Source of the DNA: Fragilariopsis cylindrus CCMP1102
Lineage: Eukaryota; Bacillariophyta; Bacillariophyceae; Bacillariales; Bacillariaceae
Direction of reading: 5' to 3'
NCBI GenBank assembly: GCA_900095095.1
Contig: FMBT01000081.1
Location: forward strand, 1 to 56,610
Length of the DNA: 56,610 bases
The translations under genes and the position numbers were made by a program. Below, one piece after another: positions 16,849-51,306 of the stretch (position 1 is its first letter; each line of letters starts with the position of its first letter). The notes under the pieces are model-generated. The model searched no databases and had not been told where the DNA came from. It saw only the letters and a list, made by a program, of their open reading frames with translations.

Positions 16849-19517
16849 TCATTCTAAACTTTTCAGCCATTCCTCTTGTTCCCATGCCATGTGCAAGATG
16901 GATTCTTTTGCTCGATACGAATGGCGCTCATGAGGAAGCACACAGAGCCTAGATTCGATGCCGAACGCTTTCAAAGCAGCAAAATATCGTTCGCTTTGAA
17001 GCGTATGAGTCCCCGAGTTTTCGTCAACTTGTCCGTGGATCAATAGCATTTTTCCGACACGTTCCTGTTCGGAATATTTCTTGACGTGCATCAAGGGACT
17101 CATTGTGATATATGTGTCTTTAGCTTCCCATATAGATCGATCTTCCGATTGAAATGACATGGGCGTTAGGGTACGATTGAAGGCACCGCTTCGTCCTATA
17201 CCAGCGGCAAACAGACTGGTATGAGACAACAAATGCGCCGTCATAAAGCTACCGTATGAATGACCTCCAACAGCGCATTTGGTAGGATCACAAACCCCCC
17301 GGGTTCCTGCGTATTCAACTGCTGCCGTCGCACCTGCGACGATTTGGTCAATGAAGGTATCATTCGGATGTGCATCACCTTCCCCAATCACCGGCAACGA
17401 GAAGTCATCCATGATGCACCACCCTTTGGTGGCCCAATGGACCGGAGATGCCCATGATGCAGAAACAAAGCGATGTTTGCTTCCCTTAATTTGTCCCGCA
17501 GCTTTCGAATTTTTGAATTCTCTCGGATATGCCCAAAATAATGTCGGTCGAGGAGTTCCATCGTAATCTGGTGGAAGATAGAGGTTGGCCGTCAATTCGA
17601 TGCCATCCTTCCGTTTATATTGCACTAATTCTTTTTTGACACCAATTAAGTCGGGTTGAGGATGTGGAAAAGCAGTGATAGCGATCTCTTTTGATGTAGG
17701 GTTACTTAAGGAAGTCATGTAATAGTTCCTCGGTGTTGTTTTACTCTCGCGGCTGATCAAAATCGAATCGTTATCGTCCATGATAACGGCAATTGTTTCG
17801 TAAACGTCATCGCGTTCGTCGGGTTTCACCCTTCGACCTCCCACTTCTGATGGCGCCGATGCGTCTTCTTCCTCTGGATCCAGAAGTTCTCCTTCTTTTG
17901 GCGCCTTGCACCTCCAAAGGCGCTCCTTGGTACCGGTGTCTAGATTCAGGGTATCCAAAAATGGACGATCTCCAAGAGATGATGCACCAGCTCCCTTCAG
18001 AAATATTTGTCCCGGTTTCTTCTCGCGTAAGAAGTACTTGCCGTTCTTTCCGAGTCTCCTAACTGGACTCCCCGGTGAGTTATATCGATCTTCCCAAGAA
18101 CCTTCCCAAAGAATTGTTTTTGTAGACGTTTCGCCGTTCGATGAAAGTTTCGATTTCCGTTCCATTCGATCGCTCCATCTGTATTCATCGATCAATATTG
18201 TCGTTCCTGACTCTGTAAATTCAATATCGTCGTAACGCCATTCGCACCGAGATAATACGACCGGTTCTCGCAAAGACAAACTACAGCCGGTATGAACATT
18301 CGAGTCATCAGCTGTTATGATGTCTAGCGTGTATAAAGCGTCACGGTACGTACACTGTTTGTCTTCGTCGAGAAAGGGGTCGTTTGAAGGATCACCTCCA
18401 TCAAGTGCCAATGCGTAGAGTAGGGTATGAGGGAAACATGGATGAATTGAAATCGGCGCTTGTGTCTCGAACAAGCGTCGAAGCTTAATGGGATCTCATC
18501 GTCGACCGGATTAGATACGATTAGAATACTGTCATTATTATATAAATCCCACACCCACACTTCTTTTCCAAAGCGATGGAAGGGTACGGAATATGAAAAG
18601 TCTGTAGCTTTCTCAACAAGTAGGTAGCGACCGCATGGGCTACTTTCGATTCGATACGGGATGATCCCACCTTTAGATTGAGTTATAATTGAAGCAGAAT
18701 CGTAATTAGAAGAATCGCCACTGCTGCCTGCAGATTCAGCACAAGAAGTTGGGTTTGTCGTTAAATCGACTTTTAATAGTTCTGTCGATACAAAATATGT
18801 AAATTTGTCTTCGTCGTGTTGATTCTTTAACAAATCTTGATATGTACGAGTAGGAGCTTTTCGTGCATTTGACTGAACAGTTTGTATTTGGGGACTTGGT
18901 ATGATGGGTTCTGATGGTGGTTCAGGTGGACGATCTTCTGGAACAACCTTACACAACAACGATTTACCATCGGACGTAAATTGATACGAACATCCGTTAA
19001 CGAAATTAGGACGTTTTTCGTTTAATGCTGGAACGGAATGAACCACCCATTTATGACTCTTTTCGCTGCTAACGTCATCATCATCATTACCACCCTTGAT
19101 CAAATTGCACACATGTACCTCCAAATGGTTCTTCCGTTTGCTCGTAAAGACGAATTGCTGCAGTGTATACTCTGGAGGATTTGGATTGAATCGGATGTAT
19201 CTAATGCCTTCACTGTCGGGTGGAAGGGGAATATCTTCCATCACCGCTCCTTTATCTCCATCCAATAATGACAGATGTTGGGCCTTTAAATCGAAACAAT
19301 AATCAAGTCGTGACGGTGCCAAAAACAATGGATCGAAACGTAATCCTGCTAATTTTTCTTCCGGTTTTGAGAGCAATTCTATCGATGGTAAAGGAGGTTC
19401 GCCGGTGTGTAGAAGCCATTGAGAATCACTAGAAATTGCCAACGACGGCGTTTTTGGTGGCAAAAATAATCGTTTCAATATCTCGGAAGGCTCCTTGTAG
19501 TCTCCTGTAGACGACAT
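16849..19517 (-). CDS. Glutamyl endopeptidase, CGEP type (peptidase S9)
   Basis: About 889 aa across two overlapping frames; a break near 18486 (GAAGCTTAA on the plus strand) needs one added base. The N-terminal half is the S9 beta-propeller and begins, as in plant CGEP, with a stretch like SDSQWLLHTGEPPLPSIELL and KLAGLRFDP. The C-terminal alpha/beta hydrolase domain shows the triad: Ser in GGHSYGSFM, Asp in HGQVDENSG and His in LPHERHSY. It would cleave peptides after Glu in the plastid or cytosol and remove protein fragments. No clear plastid leader precedes the Met at 19517, so either the form is cytosolic or an upstream exon is missed. The start lies only about 300 bp from the transposon end at 19813, so the insertion sits in its promoter region. 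Confidence 0.88.
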
Positions 19518-19807
19518 CGTACGGTCTTATTTGAACTGAATCCCCTTCTCTCTGTCTGTACCTCTCTCTTCTTCTTCTTCTTCTTCGTCTTCTTTTCTGG
19601 TGCGTTAATGATGCGCTTGCCCCGATCGACTCCAGCAACAGTAGACAATAGGTAGATAAGCCAAGTGCAGACAACAGTGCTGTTGACTGTTGAAAGATAT
19701 TCGAAACTGTTATATTTGAATTTTTTAAAAGATCCAGATCTTCGGCCAGACGACGTTAGACGTGATTATTATTAGGCTTCAATTTTTGTATTTCTTCATA
19801 CTCAATA

Positions 19808-19812
19808 CATTG
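19808..19812. repeat. Target-site duplication, left copy (CATTG)
   Basis: CATTG lies directly before the left inverted repeat and recurs at 26710-26714 directly after the right one. It is the expected footprint of transposon insertion and fixes both element ends. Confidence 0.8.
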
Positions 19813-19837
19813 AGGTGACCGGAAACGCGCGATTTCT
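19813..19837 (+). repeat. Transposon terminal inverted repeat, left
   Basis: 25 bp starting AGGTGACC and ending GATTTCT; perfect inverse of 26685-26709. Just inside, GCGCGATTTC (19828-19837) and GAAATCGCGC (about 19855-19864) form a second, nested inverted pair spaced by 17 bp, a possible transposase site or hairpin. Confidence 0.9.
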
Positions 19838-19880
19838 CATTTATTCCGGTTCATGAAATCGCGCAGTTCTGATCGGCTCG

Positions 19881-19979
19881 CTTTTTCCTGTTCATGAAAC
19901 GGAAAATTTAAATATACAGTCATTCCGGTTGAGTACTGTTTTTAACGGTTCAATGAACGGGAATTTATGCGGGCAACCG
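19881..19979 (+). repeat. Transposon subterminal direct repeat, left copy
   Basis: About 100 bp matching 26508-26606 in the same orientation. The best part is ATACAGTCATTCCGGTTGAG, then CTGTTTTTAAC and GGAATTTATGCGGGCAACCG. It contains several copies of a CCGGTT / TTCATGAA-type motif, as expected for protein-binding sites near transposon ends. Confidence 0.8.
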
Positions 19980-20389
19980 CGTTTTCCAAAAGTTAGGGTC
20001 ATTCCGGTTGGCCGCATAAAATAAAAAAAACGAGTAGATGCTTAATATCCACCTTCCCCTTTCTTTTAAATTTACCGTTATTACACCTGCCGGTCCGATT
20101 CTAGTCACAACATACCGTTGTTTTGAACTGAAATTTTCACTTGACACATGAAAGAGTTGTCAGTTACTAGCACATTACAACCCATCACATAGAATCAAAA
20201 TTTTCCCCGGTTTGGTTTGAATTGGAACGATGGTTTTTACCGGGTTCATTATGGAGTATGCTTGTATACTGTGCGGAGCCTTGCACAATCAATATTCTGA
20301 TCCATACCTCTCACAACATTTCTTCTGTTCATAAAACAAAGAAGTGTAAGTTTACAAACAAAGTTGTTGAGTCTTCATTGAATACCACG

Positions 20390-22184
20390 ATGCCCCCCGT
20401 CGCAAAGAAAAAGCGAAAAAGTTGGGGAAACCCACAGCGGAAGGCTCTTCGCCAACTGATTGATGCTTTGTTGGTTGATCCAACAAAAGTTGCACCTGAA
20501 GATATCGATCCTTACTACAAGCTTGATCCAGCCTTTGCTGAGGTTGTTGATGAAGAAGGCTTCCGTCGCAACTTTAGAAAGTTCTGTGGAATTTACCTCC
20601 AGGGCATAGCATTGAAAGGTGTTCGTCGTGGTGAGAGTTGTCATTTGTTTACAATTATGTTGGTATATTAACATTCTCTCACTTTTATATGTAACATTTC
20701 CTTCTCTATTGCTTTCATTCAGAATATTTCCAGCACGCTTTAAAAACTCCCGAAGTTGCTACTGTACCCTCTCCAAAGAGCAAACGAACTCGTGAAGAAG
20801 AAGAAGAATACGTAGAAGAAGAAGAAGAAGAAGAAGAAGTATTAAAGCCTGCTGCAACTATGACACCTCGTACTCCTCCTCCAAAGAATGTATCTATTAG
20901 CCTTCCGTTTGCTAGTCCTGGAGCTAGCATTACCAGCGCATCTCATCAGCCCGGAGTTGCCGAAGCATGGCTCCATTGCCCTGGTATGGTTGGTACTGAA
21001 TTAATCAACTCTGTGGAGGCAGGACGCCACATTGGACAGAGAACTTCCATCCATCAACGATTTCTCATTGATAGCCTAGCTAATAATGAAGATTTGGGAG
21101 CTAATTGGGATGCAGATACAAACACACTTCATATTCTTCATCGTGTCCCAGTTTGGTATGCCAACCCAAACAATCAAGATGATTATGTTACAGACGATAC
21201 TACCGGCAAGCCGATGTATCCATCAAGTCATCCTCTGCTTGGGTCAATGGCATCATGTCAAACTGCAAAGAAGATTGATGGTGAAGTTAGTTCTCCTGGG
21301 AAGATTGTTTACGAACAAGCGATGGACCCAGATTCTGTTGACTTTTATCTACAACCAATTGATGCTACTTTGGGTAAATCTAATGGTCAAGTTCTTATTG
21401 TTGCTATGGATGTCTACGTTCCAAAGGAAGTTAAGAAAGGAAAAATTGTTGCTAAGAAGCGGTCTAATGCAGCTAGAGTAGACTTAGGTACGTTGCTAGA
21501 AGATCTTGTCATGGATGATGCATCTGATGGAACTACAGGTGTAGCTGCTGATGGTACAGGAGATACCACTACTACTCCTACTCCAGGTGAGTGTGCTGCG
21601 GGCACTGCCACAATAATAATTCCTCCTGATGCGGTCACTACTACTGCTCCTCCAGCTGGTGCTGCTATGGACGCTACCGCTCCTCCAGCTGGTGCTGCTA
21701 TGGACGCTACCGCTCCTCCTGTTTCTCCAGGTGTTGCGGCTGGTAATGCTGGTACTGCTGCTCTTGGAGTTGAAACATCAAGGCAAAGAACCAGCAGACA
21801 AACAATTCGAGCCTTATCTCCTCGTAGACGTCGATCAAAAAGAAACAAGAAACAAAGACAATCTAACCGTACCCGTGCATCTCCAACTTCTTCATCTCTT
21901 CCTCCCATCCTCAAGGGTAACAAATTTGACGTTGATGATGATGACGCGATATCACTTTAGATTGTCACTATCAGAAGAGAACTGTTCCAAATACTACAAG
22001 CAACAACAACAATCTCCTCTGGTATGAACAACGATCATCGTTCGACAACCAATCATCAACACCCTTCAGCTCTTTTGACGACTCGATTGAATCTATTCCA
22101 TCATTACCGGATGGTATAGATAGATTTGAGAGTATGTTAAAAGCACTTAGAGAAACTTCCAGCGAAATATTCAACATGAAATAA
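20390..22184 (+). CDS. Transposon gene 1: unknown 567-aa protein
   Basis: Exon 1 is 20390-20630 and exon 2 starts at 20723 (92-bp GT-AG intron). The start is basic (MPPVAKKKRKSWGNPQRK, a likely nuclear signal), followed by a helical block (LRQLIDALLVDP...FRRNFRKFCGIYLQGIALKG) that could bind DNA or protein. Next come a Glu run, then a folded-looking domain (EAWLHCPGMVG, IHQRFLIDSL, VLIVAMDVYVPKEV), Ala/Pro/Thr repeats (two copies of APPAGAAMDAT) and a basic tail. The first frame stops at 21960 (DDDDAISL), but the next frame continues for 75 clean residues (WYEQRSSFDNQ, SIESIPSLPDGIDRF) to 22184, so one base is probably missing near 21945. No known family is recognised. Its position suggests a transposition or DNA-packaging helper, which is inference. 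Confidence 0.7.
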
Positions 22185-22361
22185 CCAACAACAACAACAA
22201 GAACTTAAACGTATTAGAAGAATGATGTGTATGCATCATCTCATTCATGAATAATAAAAACAATAATAGAATAAATGCTTTGTGCGTTTGTCATTGAAAT
22301 AATTAAATAACTATTTAATAATAATATTCACTTAGTATTATTATTTTATTTTCTACTTGTC

Positions 22362-22996
22362 CTAGTATAATAGTCCACGTCCTTCCTTCTTCATGATACG
22401 ACAAACAAGCTTATGCTTCTTCCAGTGAATAGTTTGACATTCCTTACTGCAGTATGCAGCGACCATGCAGTCCCCACATTGCTTGAGAGGTTCCACACCT
22501 CGTGCACCTGTGTGGCAATATTCACAAGTGAACTGCATCTTCACTCTTCCGGATGCAATTTGTTTCATATAAGATTTTTCTCCAGACTTGGTGAATGATG
22601 TCTTAGTCTTAAATGTACCATTTGCTTCTCTTTTCAAACCCTCAGCCCAAGGAATCATTTCAAATCTACCATACTTATTAATAGTACCACAAGCAACTGG
22701 TGTAAACCTGGGTCCGTCTCCCGGGCTTTCAATGTCATCGCATCTAGAGAAAGAGGTTCTTCTGTATGCCAAACCTGTTGTTCATCCGCAGTTAAGATCC
22801 CATCAATGCGTTTCCCCTTTGCTTTCTCCTGCTCCATCATTTCCTCCAACACCTCATTTTTCTTAAACATTACCTCCAAAGTCTCAATCTGCTGCAAGAT
22901 CAACTTCTTTTTCATCTCCATTGCCTGCTCCATCGTTTTCTTTGCCACCATTGCCTGGAGACGCTCTCTTGCTACCTTTGCTCTATCGTTCATCAT
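22362..22996 (-). CDS. Transposon gene 2: coiled-coil MYND zinc-finger protein
   Basis: About 211 aa. The N-terminus is a charged helix likely to form a coiled coil (MMNDRAKVARERLQAMVAKK to MMEQEKAKGKR). The C-terminus is a MYND finger: CEYCHTGARG, LKQCGDCMVAAYCSKECQ, then HWKKHKLVC, with all seven Cys and the His in the usual spacing. MYND fingers bind Pro-rich peptides in partner proteins and are common in transcription and chromatin factors, so this may recruit the transposase or host factors. Two frames overlap near 22712 and need one added base to join. It is encoded opposite to genes 1 and 3 and is not a normal part of Harbinger elements. Confidence 0.8.
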
Positions 22997-23321
22997 CTTG
23001 ATTGATAGCTTTTTAATTTGAATTCAATTCGTATTATGACTACACTCTTATCATGAACGAATCGATCAAAAAATTCTTGATATGTACTCCACGATGGATC
23101 GTGTCTATTTTCTTCCACGGTCGATAATTTTTTAACTCAGGTTTTTTTTGAATTCAGTTTTTTTTGAGTTGAACACTGTATGTAGCGTGACACAAACTAT
23201 CTTTTTTCTTCTTATCCTTCCATCAGCTCATAAATCATTGTTTCGTACAAATAGAAACCTATCATTTATTCTTACTATACTCTTATCCATTAAATCCTTT
23301 ATCCTTTTACTTTGCTTTAAC

Positions 23322-23885
23322 ATGTCTCCTCATAAGTCCTCTACTTCCAGCACTCCTGTTGCCAAGGGTCAGATCTTACGTAAGAAGAAGATTGAGGCTG
23401 GTCGCAAGTCGTTGAAAGCGGCTGAGGTTTCTCGATTGCAACACGATGCTCTCGTTGCACATCATCTCGCCCAATCTCAGGTAGCTGTTGATACTGCAGC
23501 TGAACTGAACACTCAAATTGAGTTGGATACCTCGTTGCAGTTTTACAGCAAGAAGTCTGCCAGTACTGCCAAGAGCAACAATGTTGCTCTCCTTACTGAG
23601 ATGCTTGGTGGATCCTTTGCTCAGGACGTCACTCGTCCTGTTGTTGTTGCTTGTGCTACTCTCGTGGTTGAGGTGTGCTTATCTTTTGGGCCTGTCACGA
23701 ATGTGCAGATGAAGAGTCTTCATCGTGGTGCCAACCAATTGCCCTCTCTTTTTGAGGAAGCGAGGGATATGGCTTTGAAACATTCTTTGATTCTTAAGCA
23801 TGAAGTTGATCCAACTTGTACTTTCAATCCTCAGTACTGGGAATACATGTATTCTGCTAAAGGTTCTCCGGCTGAAGAAGCATAG
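23322..23885 (+). CDS. Transposon gene 3: unknown 187-aa protein
   Basis: ATG at 23322 starts MSPHKSSTSSTPVAKGQILR, a basic, Ser/Thr-rich N-terminus with a KKKIEAGRKS patch. A mostly helical, Ala-rich body follows (AEVSRLQHDALVAHHLAQSQ) and then a hydrophobic segment (VVVACATLVVEVCLSF), which is too polar at its flanks to be a sure membrane helix. The C-terminus has a Tyr/Trp-rich tail (YWEYMYSAKG). The frame is complete, with unbiased codons and no breaks. No family recognised. Located between the MYND gene and the acidic protein inside the transposon. Confidence 0.65.
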   Translation: MSPHKSSTSSTPVAKGQILRKKKIEAGRKSLKAAEVSRLQHDALVAHHLAQSQVAVDTAAELNTQIELDTSLQFYSKKSASTAKSNNVALLTEMLGGSFAQDVTRPVVVACATLVVEVCLSFGPVTNVQMKSLHRGANQLPSLFEEARDMALKHSLILKHEVDPTCTFNPQYWEYMYSAKGSPAEEA

Positions 23886-24395
23886 GATATATCCAAATGT
23901 TCATGTTAATGCAGTATAACTTATCGTCATAGTAGTATAAATTAACCTTTTAAACTAAATCTTAGGTCATCGAGGTATACATATTTATTTCATTGTTGTC
24001 TAATACAAAAACGATGTCTGTTGTAGTGATTTATGCCTTATAATTTACATCATTTTTTGCTTTGATGTCAATGAAAGGTTGTCAACAACTCCGAATTCAC
24101 CTCTACGAATTTTTTGACCGACCACAGACAGACACATAACAGAAAAGAAAAAAAACTATATTATATCTCATTGGTACAACCCTGTTACCACCTTATCTTC
24201 ACATCTTTTCTCTATTGCACATACCACATGCCTCTCTTATTTGCTAATTCAAAAAAAAAGCAACCCCGTCAAATGAAATGGGTTGAATGGGTAGGCAATA
24301 ATATAAAGGGACCTTTGTTGTCGAAAGGGATGAACTGTCATAAAACTGAAAAGGCGTACTAAAAATACCACAAACTACAAACAACAGCGCAAACA
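23886..24395. other. Spacer inside the transposon
   Basis: AT-rich sequence between genes 3 and 4. An open frame at 24114-24362 (+) is short, Lys-rich and lacks supporting signals, so it is not called. Confidence 0.35.
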
Positions 24396-24396
24396 A

Positions 24397-24969
24397 ATGT
24401 GTTTCTATTTTCCTTGTCTCGATTCTTTCTTCAAAAAGAAAGAAGACATTGTTTGTGACGATGATGGATCGATGTCATCCATGCCAAGTCTATATGATCT
24501 TCACTTCAGTGCCCGTATGAGTGGTGTCAATATTGTGCCCAACAAAGCTCTGCACTCATTTGATACTTTGGTTTATACTGGTGATGGTGGTGGTGATGAT
24601 GTTGTTGTGGACTTGCTTTCTTGTGATGATTATGTTGTTGTGAACTTGCCTTGTGATGATGATAGTGATGATGATGATGATGATGATGATGGAGACGAAG
24701 ACGGAGGCTTAGACGAAGACGAAGACGGACGCTTAGTTGAAGACGAAGACGGAGGCTTAGTTTGGAACACAGTAAGACCACCTTGGAACAGATACCGTGC
24801 TATGCTTAAGAGGGAGAAAGAGAGACATCTTGATATGGAATTTTTTGATTTGTATCTCAAAAATCGAAAGAAGGAAGAAGATCGTCGTACACGAATTCTT
24901 GATTCTCGGGATGATTTTCGGGATGGTGATCTGTATGATCCGGAAGATCGCGATGATAATGGTTTCTAA
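24397..24969 (+). CDS. Transposon gene 4: very acidic unknown protein
   Basis: 190 aa in one exon: a Cys-containing start (MCFYFPCLDSFFKKKE), then an Asp-rich middle with an Asp run (about DDDSDDDDDDDD) and three diverged copies of a GGL/GRL-x-EDEDG repeat, then a charged helix (RAMLKREKERHLDMEF and YLKNRKKEEDRRTRI). The acidic middle with a flanking basic helix is like chaperone or activation regions of nuclear proteins, which is inference only. The repeated GAAGACGAAGACGG DNA suggests recent expansion. No family recognised. Confidence 0.6.
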   Translation: MCFYFPCLDSFFKKKEDIVCDDDGSMSSMPSLYDLHFSARMSGVNIVPNKALHSFDTLVYTGDGGGDDVVVDLLSCDDYVVVNLPCDDDSDDDDDDDDGDEDGGLDEDEDGRLVEDEDGGLVWNTVRPPWNRYRAMLKREKERHLDMEFFDLYLKNRKKEEDRRTRILDSRDDFRDGDLYDPEDRDDNGF

Positions 24970-25228
24970 TAATTTCTGCCTATCTTTCCACATCCACATT
25001 AATCGATCGATGAATTGTTACATCATCTTGATACAACTATAGTAACTAATCGCACCAACAGTTCCTATCTTCATTGATGAATGAATTGGCTATGTACGAT
25101 AATCTAAAAAAATGTAAATAATAATACAAGCATATTAATATTAAAAAATGAAATAAAAAAGATTTATCTATTCTATAATGCTATTGTGAAATAGTATTTA
25201 TCTATTGTCGTAAACTTGTTGTTGTTTC

Positions 25229-26302
25229 TTATACACAACTATCATATGCATCTCCTAAACTCCACAATTCTTTGAAGCCCATTTCCATTGAAATCTGTTT
25301 GATAACTGCACAAGCATAGAACATTTTACCGTGCTTCTCTATTCTTTCTTCTGGCGAGCCATGACCTTTGAATGGTTTATCAAGGCAATTCCAATTTGCC
25401 ATATGTCCCATCAAACCCTCAATACGACCTTGTGCTCTTCTCCTCATACTCTGCGATTCCTCATTACCAATGCAAGCCAAAGAAGCCTGGCATTTCACAA
25501 ATTCTGGTGATTCTCCTACGTAAATGTCATCAGCCTCTACTTGCTCACCTGCATCTAGCATCCACTTTAATTCTGCTCTAAAGATTGATAAATCATTCAT
25601 TTCACCTGGTAAATACGGACCAGAAATGTTGACAATATCACTTGAACGTAGTGCAGAAGCAATCTCATACCGAAGTCCCGGGCCGTTTAACTTCTTTGCC
25701 ATGAATGCCTTATTTCGCTTCTTGTGACCTGGTTTTCTTATATTTGGACAAAGGATTTGTTGGAATGGACAATCAATTGTGTCGATACCAGCTAAACAAT
25801 CTTCATGATTATCATTTGTTTTTTGATTCTCCCATACAATTACATTTGGATGTAGATCGGAAATCGCTTCAATTGCTATCCAGATCCACTTATATATGGT
25901 CTTTTCGTCAGGCCTTCTATGTTCTGTCTCTTGCTTAACTGATGCTCCCATTATTTTCATATCTGGATAAACTTTCAGAAAGTACAAAGCCCACATCAAA
26001 TGTTTCTTTTTCATTTTTGGATTGGTGGATGTTTCGTGTTCTGAGATCATCTCCCAAACTTTGGCCATAACAATGGGTGGAATACCAAAACTAGTGACGA
26101 ATTCTCTTCTCTTATTATTGAAGCAATGAAGTGTACATTTTATAATTGCACGTCCAAGTAATTCGAATTCTGATACATTCCTAAGATCAGGCTGTGATAG
26201 CCGGTTTGATTGTCGAGTAATTTCCTTCACTTTCAGCATTGAAAGACCTTGGGTGAGAGCTTCCATAGCAAAATCAGCACTTTTAGCACCATTGAACGCC
26301 AT
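25229..26302 (-). CDS. Transposon gene 5: DDE transposase, IS5/PIF-Harbinger group
   Basis: 357 aa, one intact frame. The N-terminal 130 residues are helical and probably bind DNA (no clear zinc finger). The catalytic core follows the pattern of DDE_Tnp_4-type transposases: first Asp in GIDTIDCPF (D174 or D177), then KLNGPGLRYEIASAL, IVNISGPYLPGEMNDLSIFR, second Asp in GEQVEADDIYVGE (D258 or D259), and the Glu in RRRAQGRIEGLMGHM (E295), ending with a helix (HGKMFYACAVIKQISMEMG). The LNGPGLRYE and GPYLPGEMNDLSIFR strings match the algal/oomycete Harbinger-like family. It would cut the 25-bp ends and insert the element. All three acidic positions are present, so it may be active. Confidence 0.85.
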   Translation of the reverse strand: MAFNGAKSADFAMEALTQGLSMLKVKEITRQSNRLSQPDLRNVSEFELLGRAIIKCTLHCFNNKRREFVTSFGIPPIVMAKVWEMISEHETSTNPKMKKKHLMWALYFLKVYPDMKIMGASVKQETEHRRPDEKTIYKWIWIAIEAISDLHPNVIVWENQKTNDNHEDCLAGIDTIDCPFQQILCPNIRKPGHKKRNKAFMAKKLNGPGLRYEIASALRSSDIVNISGPYLPGEMNDLSIFRAELKWMLDAGEQVEADDIYVGESPEFVKCQASLACIGNEESQSMRRRAQGRIEGLMGHMANWNCLDKPFKGHGSPEERIEKHGKMFYACAVIKQISMEMGFKELWSLGDAYDSCV

Positions 26303-26507
26303 TTTGCAATACTGTATATTCTGTTCTTTTTCTTAACACAAGTGTAGTAAATATTGAGTTGATAGATCGTGGAACGATGATATCAAATCTATGTGAGAGG
26401 AGAGACAATGAATACAGTACACCCGGCGGCATGGAGGTGCAGAGGTGCATTGTGAGTCCTGTCAAAATTGAGGGGGCTCCGACATAATCTGAATTAGCGA
26501 TAATTTC

Positions 26508-26606
26508 TTTTTTCCGGTTCATCAACGGGAAAAAATGGCGATACAGTCATTCCGGTTGAGAACTGTTTTTAACTGATCAATGAACCGGAATTTATGCGGG
26601 CAACCG
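26508..26606 (+). repeat. Transposon subterminal direct repeat, right copy
   Basis: Second copy of the block at 19881-19979, in the same orientation, lying between the transposase start and the right inverted repeat. GCGGGCAACCG and CATTCCGGTTGAG are shared exactly. Confidence 0.8.
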
Positions 26607-26684
26607 GAAACTCCTAATCGTGAATGACCGTTGATTTTTCGCGCGCAAGCTTAAGAGAGTATGATTCTTGGAACGGAAAAAATT

Positions 26685-26709
26685 AGAAATCGCGCGTTTC
26701 CGGTCACCT
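26685..26709 (-). repeat. Transposon terminal inverted repeat, right
   Basis: 25 bp, perfect reverse complement of 19813-19837, ending GGTCACCT. It is followed at once by the second CATTG copy. Confidence 0.9.
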
Positions 26710-26714
26710 CATTG
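26710..26714. repeat. Target-site duplication, right copy (CATTG)
   Basis: Matches 19808-19812. The flank beyond it (GTACTTCAAAAGTACATT) is a small palindrome outside the element. Confidence 0.8.
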
Positions 26715-27032
26715 TACTTCAAAAGTACATTCATTGTACTTATACTTTATATATTATCTATCATCTATCTATCTTGGTAGGAATCTTCTGCTCATACTGA
26801 CAAAAGTGGTCCATGACGACTACTATTTTCGTTCCACCGCATAAGTCTTTCAAACCGTATCCATCTCTTGGCAGCACCCATATGAATGCATTGTTATTCC
26901 TGTCGGTGAAAGCGTTTTTGAGGTGTCGTTTTTCCTATATTACTGTCCTATCAAGTATGTGCGATATATGAATAGAAATATTGGAGTACATAATCAATAC
27001 AAAGAAAAACACGATATCATCATATTATAATC
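26715..27032. other. Spacer between transposon and kinase gene
   Basis: AT-rich, with a TATCTATC repeat near 26756-26773. No gene seen. It probably contains the kinase promoter. Confidence 0.35.
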
Positions 27033-49851: not shown

Positions 49852-50942
49852 GGAACATCCTCGATTTAAAAATAATCGAAAATCGCCGAATATTCACAAC
49901 CCCCACCGAGCGCGCGCGACATGAGATGAATGGTTGGTCGACTCATCACTCGACTCAGAGTCGAGTGCTCGACTCTGAGTCGAGCACTCGACTCTGAGTC
50001 CAGTGATGAGTCAAGCGCTCGACTCTGAGTCGAGCACTCGACTCTGAGTCGAGTGATTTGACTCAATTTCTAGTCTGGTCCAAGGAAAATATTTTTTTAA
50101 GGTTTTCAATTGTATTACAACATCATAACAATGGGAATGTAATGAATCTTATCTCCATCAATATGGGACCAATTAATACAAACTTTATAGACGAAATATA
50201 GATATTCGTACGCTTAATAGAGACAAAAAGTTTCGCTGTGATTTGATCATTTAGAAAAAATTCTATAGGACAATTACTAAGAATTGAAATGGAAAACTAC
50301 CGTATTCACATCAACATGAAAATGGAAATGTAATGAATCGTATCTCCATCAATATGAGCTCATTTAATACGAACTTCATAAACGAAATATAGATATTTGT
50401 ACTGTTAATAGACACAAAAAGTTTCGCTGTGATTTGGTCATTTGAAAAATATTTATGAGGATTTATGTGGGTGGCAGGCAATTCCTGGCGATTCGAATGT
50501 GCCTGCCACCCACAATAATCATCATAGCATTTTTTCCAAATGACCAAATTCAACCAAAATTTTACGTGTTGTTAGGAGTACACATATCAATATTTCGTCT
50601 ATATAGTTTGTATTAAATGGAGCTATATTGGTGGAGCTACGATTTATTACATCCCATTGTCATGATGATAGGATAATTTTTGTTGTTTAAATACAAGTGA
50701 AAACTAGGACACAGGGCCAGGCAAAAAATTGCTTGAGTCGAGCGCTCGACTCTGAGTCGAGTGATGAGTCGAGCGCTCGACTCATCACTCGGCTCAGAGT
50801 CGAGTGCTCGACTCAGAGTCGAGTGCTCGACTCATCACTCGACTCAGAGTCGAGCGCTCGACTCATCACTCGACTCATGTCCCGCGCAGGGGGGGTATGA
50901 TTTTTCGCTGATTTTGGTTTTTTTTTAAATCGAGGATGTTCC
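49852..50942. mobile_element. 1.1-kb foldback / MITE-like element
   Basis: Ends: GGAACATCCTCGATTTAAAA (49852 onward) and its inverse ending at 50942. The inverted similarity runs about 75 bp with gaps, to ACATGAG / CATGT. Next inside are two arrays of GAGTCGAGC/GCTCGACTC units (about 49935-50057 and 50733-50880), themselves palindromic. The middle holds two direct copies of a 120-bp block (ATGTAATGAATC...CGCTGTGATTTG, 50138-50258 and 50326-50446), an inverted diverged copy (about 50543-50665) and a 14-bp hairpin at 50467-50513. No open frame is supported, so it is non-autonomous. A target duplication could not be fixed. Confidence 0.75.
50467..50513. repeat. Perfect 14-bp hairpin inside the foldback element
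   Basis: GTGGGTGGCAGGCA (50467-50480) and its exact inverse (50500-50513) are separated by 19 bp. It sits at the centre of the foldback element and can form a strong stem. Confidence 0.85.
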
Positions 50943-51306
50943 TGTATTACTCAATAGTCAATAGGTGCGCGATAAATCATTATTTTCAGATTTAGAGATT
51001 GAATGCCGAAGGGAACTAAAATAACTAATACGACTGAAAAAGAAATCTCAATATCTCATATTCAATAATATCGATCGATCAACACAAACGAAACTCAAAA
51101 ATATTTTTGGATGTTTCACTCACCGTGGACATTGCAACGACTAATGATGGATGATTTAGCGATCGACTTTCGTTTCCTCCAAGATGAATTCCTTGTACAA
51201 GGATTGTCCAGCAAACACCGACTGAACTGTGAACTTTTTCCTCACACATTTATTCATCAGAACAAATAATAGAACGAACAACTATTCTTAAATTAATCTA
51301 TCAAAG
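50943..51306. other. Spacer before the next gene
   Basis: AT-rich, no gene seen. An A/C-rich leader precedes ATG 51307. Confidence 0.35.

Follow-up and report, generated by a model that had tools for sequence, protein, structure and literature searches.

The 56,610-nucleotide stretch of Fragilariopsis cylindrus CCMP1102 DNA analysed here (contig FMBT01000081.1 of assembly GCA_900095095.1; hereafter the window) contains a 6,899-bp element that is very probably a Harbinger-type transposon with a 3-bp ANT target, a core consisting of a DDE transposase and a partner gene (open reading frame 1, ORF1), and a middle part filled with cargo genes that are swapped between elements. A first-pass annotation had described a large, autonomous-looking DNA transposon with extra genes, and this description holds; its proposals of a 5-bp target duplication, of a missing helper gene and of atypical ends do not, and its suggestion of a new lineage in diatoms is not borne out. 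The features of the element are as follows, with the splice of ORF1 inferred from the reading frame:

19809..19811: left copy of the ATT target duplication, 3 bp
19812..26710: whole element, 6,899 bp, delimited by its ends and by its absence from the putatively allelic contig C164
19812..19837, + strand: perfect 26-bp inverted repeat at the left terminus, starting GAGGTGACC
19882..19979, + strand: 98-nt subterminal repeat, 86% identical to 26509-26606 and running in the same direction
20390..20630, + strand: ORF1 exon 1 (putative partner gene), GT..AG intron borders
20723..21960, + strand: ORF1 exon 2, containing the domain that the sister families also have in their second gene
22362..22996, - strand: MYND-finger gene, in two frames, frameshifted relative to the copies on C706 and C158
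23322..23885, + strand: 187-amino acid (aa) gene, function unknown
24397..24969, + strand: 190-aa acidic gene, function unknown
25229..26302, - strand: DDE transposase, 357 aa, with D174, D258 and E295
26509..26606, + strand: subterminal repeat, pairing with 19882-19979
26685..26710, - strand: perfect 26-bp inverted repeat at the right terminus
26711..26713: right copy of the ATT target duplication, 3 bp

Ends, target duplication and empty allele

The inverted ends had been reported as perfect over 25 bp. They are perfect, but comparison with related copies revealed that the G preceding AGGTGACC is part of the end, which places the borders at G19812 and C26710 and gives repeats of 26 bp. The sequence ANT|GAGG is present at all eight distinct ends of the family, i.e., two of the window copy, two each of the miniature inverted-repeat transposable elements (MITEs) on contigs C80 and C358, and one each on C356 and C464; C311 was left out of this count because it repeats the C358 insertion. 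A query lacking the G found six of these eight ends, and a pattern including it found both ends on C358. Because the G belongs to the end at all eight, the duplication is read as a 3-bp ATT.

The alternative of a new lineage with 5-bp CATTG duplications and ends starting AGGTGACC appears hardly credible. The letters CATTG do flank the window copy left and right, but under this reading the C358 insertion would be flanked by CATTG/CATTC and the C80 insertion by TAGTG/CAATA, the G stands before AGG at every one of the eight ends, and the sister families described below show repeats of 3 bp and ends that begin with GAG. Three distinct insertions have both ends, with flanks ATT/ATT (window), ATT/ATT (C358) and AGT/AAT (C80); their identity is 3/3, 3/3 and 2/3 when read as 3 bp and 5/5, 4/5 and 2/5 when read as 5 bp. 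Two of the three thus carry a perfect ANT duplication, and the single-base mismatch of the C80 MITE is a point against the 3-bp reading. Within the limits of three distinct insertions, a 5-bp duplication is refuted, and the case illustrates that a single copy can mimic 5 bp from a 3-bp duplication when the flanks chance to match the end bases. Neither the TWA duplication of canonical PIF/Harbinger elements, which was seen neither in the window family (ATT) nor in its sister families, nor the 2-bp AT duplication of ISL2EU is found here (3-bp repeats in the window and on C358), and the scanned proteins include no match to YqaJ, the additional ISL2EU open reading frame.

Searching the genome with the 20-base end and up to three mismatches returned six sites, compared to one for the reversed control, whereas a second end pattern returned 31 sites for both query and reversed control; for the latter pattern, the sites with zero or two mismatches (n=6) and the C311/C358 pairs were read, and the other three-mismatch sites were left out. 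On C80, a 481-bp MITE has the 20-base ends of the window element; a 540-bp MITE represents one insertion seen on two contigs, C358 and C311; and C356 and C464 each contain one further single end. The other copies that the first-pass annotation proposed to look for therefore exist as MITEs and single ends with the same ends, but not as copies with the same five genes. No second full-length copy was found, only MITEs and fragments, in a search that scored the best candidates only, and this is a point against the reading given here.

An empty site, also proposed as a test, was found in the same genome. The joined flanks with a single ATT matched one junction-spanning place, C164:79302-79705, with 83% identity. 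C164 is about 100% identical to the window over the 4,000 bp further right, agrees with the left 397-aa open reading frame at 1193 of 1194 bases and is 99.8% identical in the right kinase exon, and it is apparently either the other allele or a duplicate of very recent origin. It contains both flanks and no element; the insertion is real and probably recent, and would be present in one allele only. For 600 bp around the site (19512-19811 and 26714-27013 compared to C164) the alleles are only about 85% alike, although their coding sequence is nearly identical. As an arbiter of duplication length the empty allele gives no decision, because the pre-insertion letters are the same both ways and the site is locally diverged. 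The left 397-aa open reading frame, labelled CGEP in the first-pass annotation, matches no family in Pfam or NCBIfam.

Core genes and sister families

The transposase had been called a Harbinger-like DDE enzyme, and this is supported by its conserved residues, by a structure model with an RNase H-like DDE fold and by its relatives. In their alignment D174 and D258 are invariant and E295 is found in 19 of the 20 rows that reach it, and PF13359 (DDE_Tnp_4) matches six of the 22 aligned relatives, the best at 1e-9. The relation to DDE_Tnp_4 that characterizes transposases of the PIF/Harbinger-ISL2EU-Spy (PHIS) superfamily is thus established via the relatives. Two results speak against the assignment: the window transposase itself has no Pfam DDE match, and plain Foldseek against the PDB yielded no match at E 1e-3. 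Five PDB sequence matches (four isomerases and one designed protein, E 0.39 or worse) were taken as chance, and scans of viral contigs with P0011, the transposase and the 187-aa protein revealed no relative.

The transposase led to two sister families, X and Y, within this genome. Their ends, GAGCATCCGG in X and GAGAGCCCGCG in Y, start with GAG, and all 13 paired insertions whose flanks were read (seven of X from 39 end matches, six of Y from 29) lie at differing sites between perfect 3-bp repeats, either CAG or CTG, which is the CWG duplication that defines NuwaI. This count does not include ends without a partner or the pairs spanning 12 kb at C80 and 2.8 kb at C367; CAG or CTG also occurs at the left junctions of loci L022, L024, L025 and L027. 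Family X has the two core genes and no cargo. Family Y (L045, L047, L057, L058; C678, C56) includes elements of 6.4 and 6.8 kb, whose ends are common to 0.5-kb MITEs, with an extra gene of unknown kind encoding 321 to 385 aa between the core genes. The first-pass annotation had stated that copies with 3-bp TWA duplications and no extra genes would speak against it; 3-bp duplications (ANT and CWG) are indeed found in the relatives and family X lacks cargo, but TWA was not seen.

The helper gene had been regarded as absent and replaced by four other proteins. One of these four, ORF1, is instead identified with good support as the second core gene of the lineage, because sequence profiles of the window protein and of families X and Y both match the second gene of an element on C79. 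A profile of ORF1 and four database homologues, run against 1793 open frames from the fetched loci, hit this gene at E 1.4e-9, and the profile of families X and Y hit the same gene at E 7e-13; hhalign of window ORF1 with the C79 gene gave E 2.1e-5, and the partner genes of Y and X match each other at E 0.003. The core genes are arranged tail to tail in the window, in X and in Y. Several results argue against this identification: ORF1 retrieved nothing but itself when searched directly against the genome, its direct comparison with X or Y was not significant, and its link to the sister families depends on the C79 gene. Exon 1 has no relative among the fetched loci. ORF1 matches no Pfam family and no Myb/SANT domain, and the structure model of exon 2 has a pLDDT of 32; the scanned partner reading frames of X and Y likewise have no Pfam match, including Myb/SANT. 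A match of ORF1 to GltJ in NCBIfam (E 0.0015) fell far under the cut-off and was rejected.

Whether the element is a dead relic without present activity can be judged from the same data, and we consider this improbable. The frameshifted MYND gene and the single full-length copy favour such a relic, while the perfect ends and ATT repeats, the open reading frames of transposase and ORF1, the database proteins 98% identical to the transposase and 99% identical to ORF1, and the insertion in one allele only all stand against it.

Putative cargo genes between the core genes

Three extra genes, the MYND gene, the 187-aa gene and the 190-aa gene, lie between ORF1 and the transposase. Five genes are thus present inside the element as first annotated, but not all are intact, as the MYND gene is split over two frames. 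Its identification as a MYND-finger protein is confirmed by a PF01753 match (E 3.6e-11), and the copies on C706 and C158 each read through in one open frame, of 227 and 248 codons, respectively. When the C706 MYND protein was compared to the genome, 48 matches were obtained, six of which, at five places, are at least 71% identical. All six are located within 2.6 kb of one of 30 transposase matches, whereas none of the other 42 (at most 64% identical) is closer than 18 kb to a transposase match. C88 and C164 are 98% identical at the MYND place and may be one locus, so that the independent loci number four. The adjoining transposases are of the window type on C383 and, by similarity (two segments, at 33 to 51%), on C706; they are of a second type, clade Z, on C158 (placed in the tree) and on C88/C164 (by similarity only). 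Because all five places adjoin PHIS transposases, and these are of two distant types, we take the MYND gene to be cargo exchanged between transposons.

The case for the 187-aa and 190-aa genes as exchanged cargo is weaker. The 187-aa gene has 11 genome matches, three of which have a transposase match no more than 3.4 kb away, and remnants of the 190-aa gene adjoin the transposases on C90 and C706. Element ends were sought at C158, C88, C706, C90, C570, C603 and C679 and none was convincing, although the script recovers those of the window element and of family X; without ends at C706, C158 and C88, the adjoining transposase may lie outside the element of the MYND gene, which is a point against exchange.

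The middle genes might also be separate nested insertions or useless captured host genes rather than travelling cargo, but we regard this as unlikely. It would explain why the 187-aa block stands alone on C603 with no transposase match near, why C706 lacks this block, why all five genes occur in one full copy only, and why the MYND gene is frameshifted. Against it are the MYND subfamily next to transposases at five of five places, the 190-aa gene remnants next to the C90 and C706 transposases, and the lack of visible inverted ends bordering the 187-aa block. Exchanged cargo remains the preferred reading, and for one cargo gene a position next to two types of transposase could be traced within a single genome.

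MYND fingers are protein-contact modules. The literature searched contained no Harbinger with a MYND gene and no precedent for the cargo gene set of the window; a MYND domain near a long terminal repeat element is on record (PMC3562529).

Further observations concern the middle part. The 187-aa coding sequence is base-for-base identical between window positions 23322-23885 and C603:54577-55137, and the 48 differing columns of the 1.2-kb block are all outside the coding sequence. A weak likeness of residues 91-153 of the protein (window 23592-23780) to the transducer of topoisomerase VI B, at E 1.1e-4 in Pfam and 6.9e-5 in NCBIfam, falls under either cut-off and is no more than a lead. The gap between ORF1 and the MYND gene (22017-22326) is a repeat of its own, 72-95% identical to many contigs.

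Classification and proposed mechanism

The element belongs to the PHIS superfamily and represents no new superfamily; its target type, its two-gene core and its cargo capture each have a precedent. Han et al. 2015 used the duplication to define Pangu (ANT) and NuwaI (CWG) (PMC4482050), and the ends considered atypical at first thus correspond to a Pangu-type target on record. As in Pangu, the element has a 3-bp ANT duplication, a DDE transposase without any other domain and a second reading frame without a recognised motif, although three further genes are present; this description of the second frame follows section 6 of that paper, the Discussion of which counts Pangu among the groups with a Myb/SANT reading frame. 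Unlike Pangu, the element is 6.9 kb long, compared to an average of about 3.5 kb, and, given the ATT duplication, its ends start with GA instead of the usual AG or GG, which is a soft feature. Pangu has been equated with Harbinger2 of Repbase (PMC12730594). By duplication and coding plan, the window element is most likely a cargo-bearing Pangu-type element.

Judged by their description, Harbingers of the ANT type in Ectocarpus, a brown alga and thus a stramenopile host, share the ANT duplication and two tail-to-tail core genes (PMC12477816), but differ in that the window element has cargo between the core genes. Families X and Y resemble NuwaI in duplicating CAG or CTG, whereas the window element duplicates ATT; NuwaI is reported from animals only and with a Myb/SANT reading frame, and one heterokont is listed among the Pangu hosts (PMC4482050). 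The TET-bearing PHISTA elements of rust fungi, described in the 2025 TET/JBP paper, are likewise PHIS transposons with an extra gene that crossed between transposon superfamilies, but with other cargo and TA duplications (PMC12730594). Canonical PIF/Harbinger elements share the DDE_Tnp_4-like transposase, the 3-bp duplication and the two-gene core; they differ in duplicating TWA instead of ATT, and their Myb/SANT domain was not recognised in ORF1. A CWG target is also used by the Harbingers of zebrafish.

In the mechanism that we propose, the transposase and the partner ORF1, which would assist transposition, recognise the 26-bp ends and the subterminal repeats. Integration at an ANT target, staggered by 3 bases and followed by gap filling, would leave ATT on both sides. 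With the core genes tail to tail near the element ends, the middle could take up cargo. This cargo may pass to elements whose transposases differ, probably when nested or adjoining elements recombine. The short copies on C80 and C358/C311 were presumably moved by proteins of full-length copies, and the cargo may act on host silencing or transcription. The element thus provides a well-anchored PHIS case (ends, empty allele, relatives and partner gene) whose middle would serve as a cargo bay.

More tentatively, and with about as much doubt as confidence, the ANT and CWG elements of this genome can be viewed as sister lineages with a common partner gene. The outer target base pair would then have switched within one lineage, so that the duplication type, by which Pangu and NuwaI are now told apart, would mark no clades, and the elements would form a network trading cargo across transposases about 24% identical. 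ANT and CWG targets are found here with related transposases that share a partner, so that a comparison could reveal which residues determine the outer base of the target.

Two observations concern clade Z transposases. Several stretches of the window at 49852-50944 are 70-86% identical to the flank of the clade Z transposase on C648 (L037). On C158, a 589-aa open frame (L031:1483-3249) fuses a ubiquitin domain (E 5e-13) to a clade Z DDE_Tnp_4 transposase.

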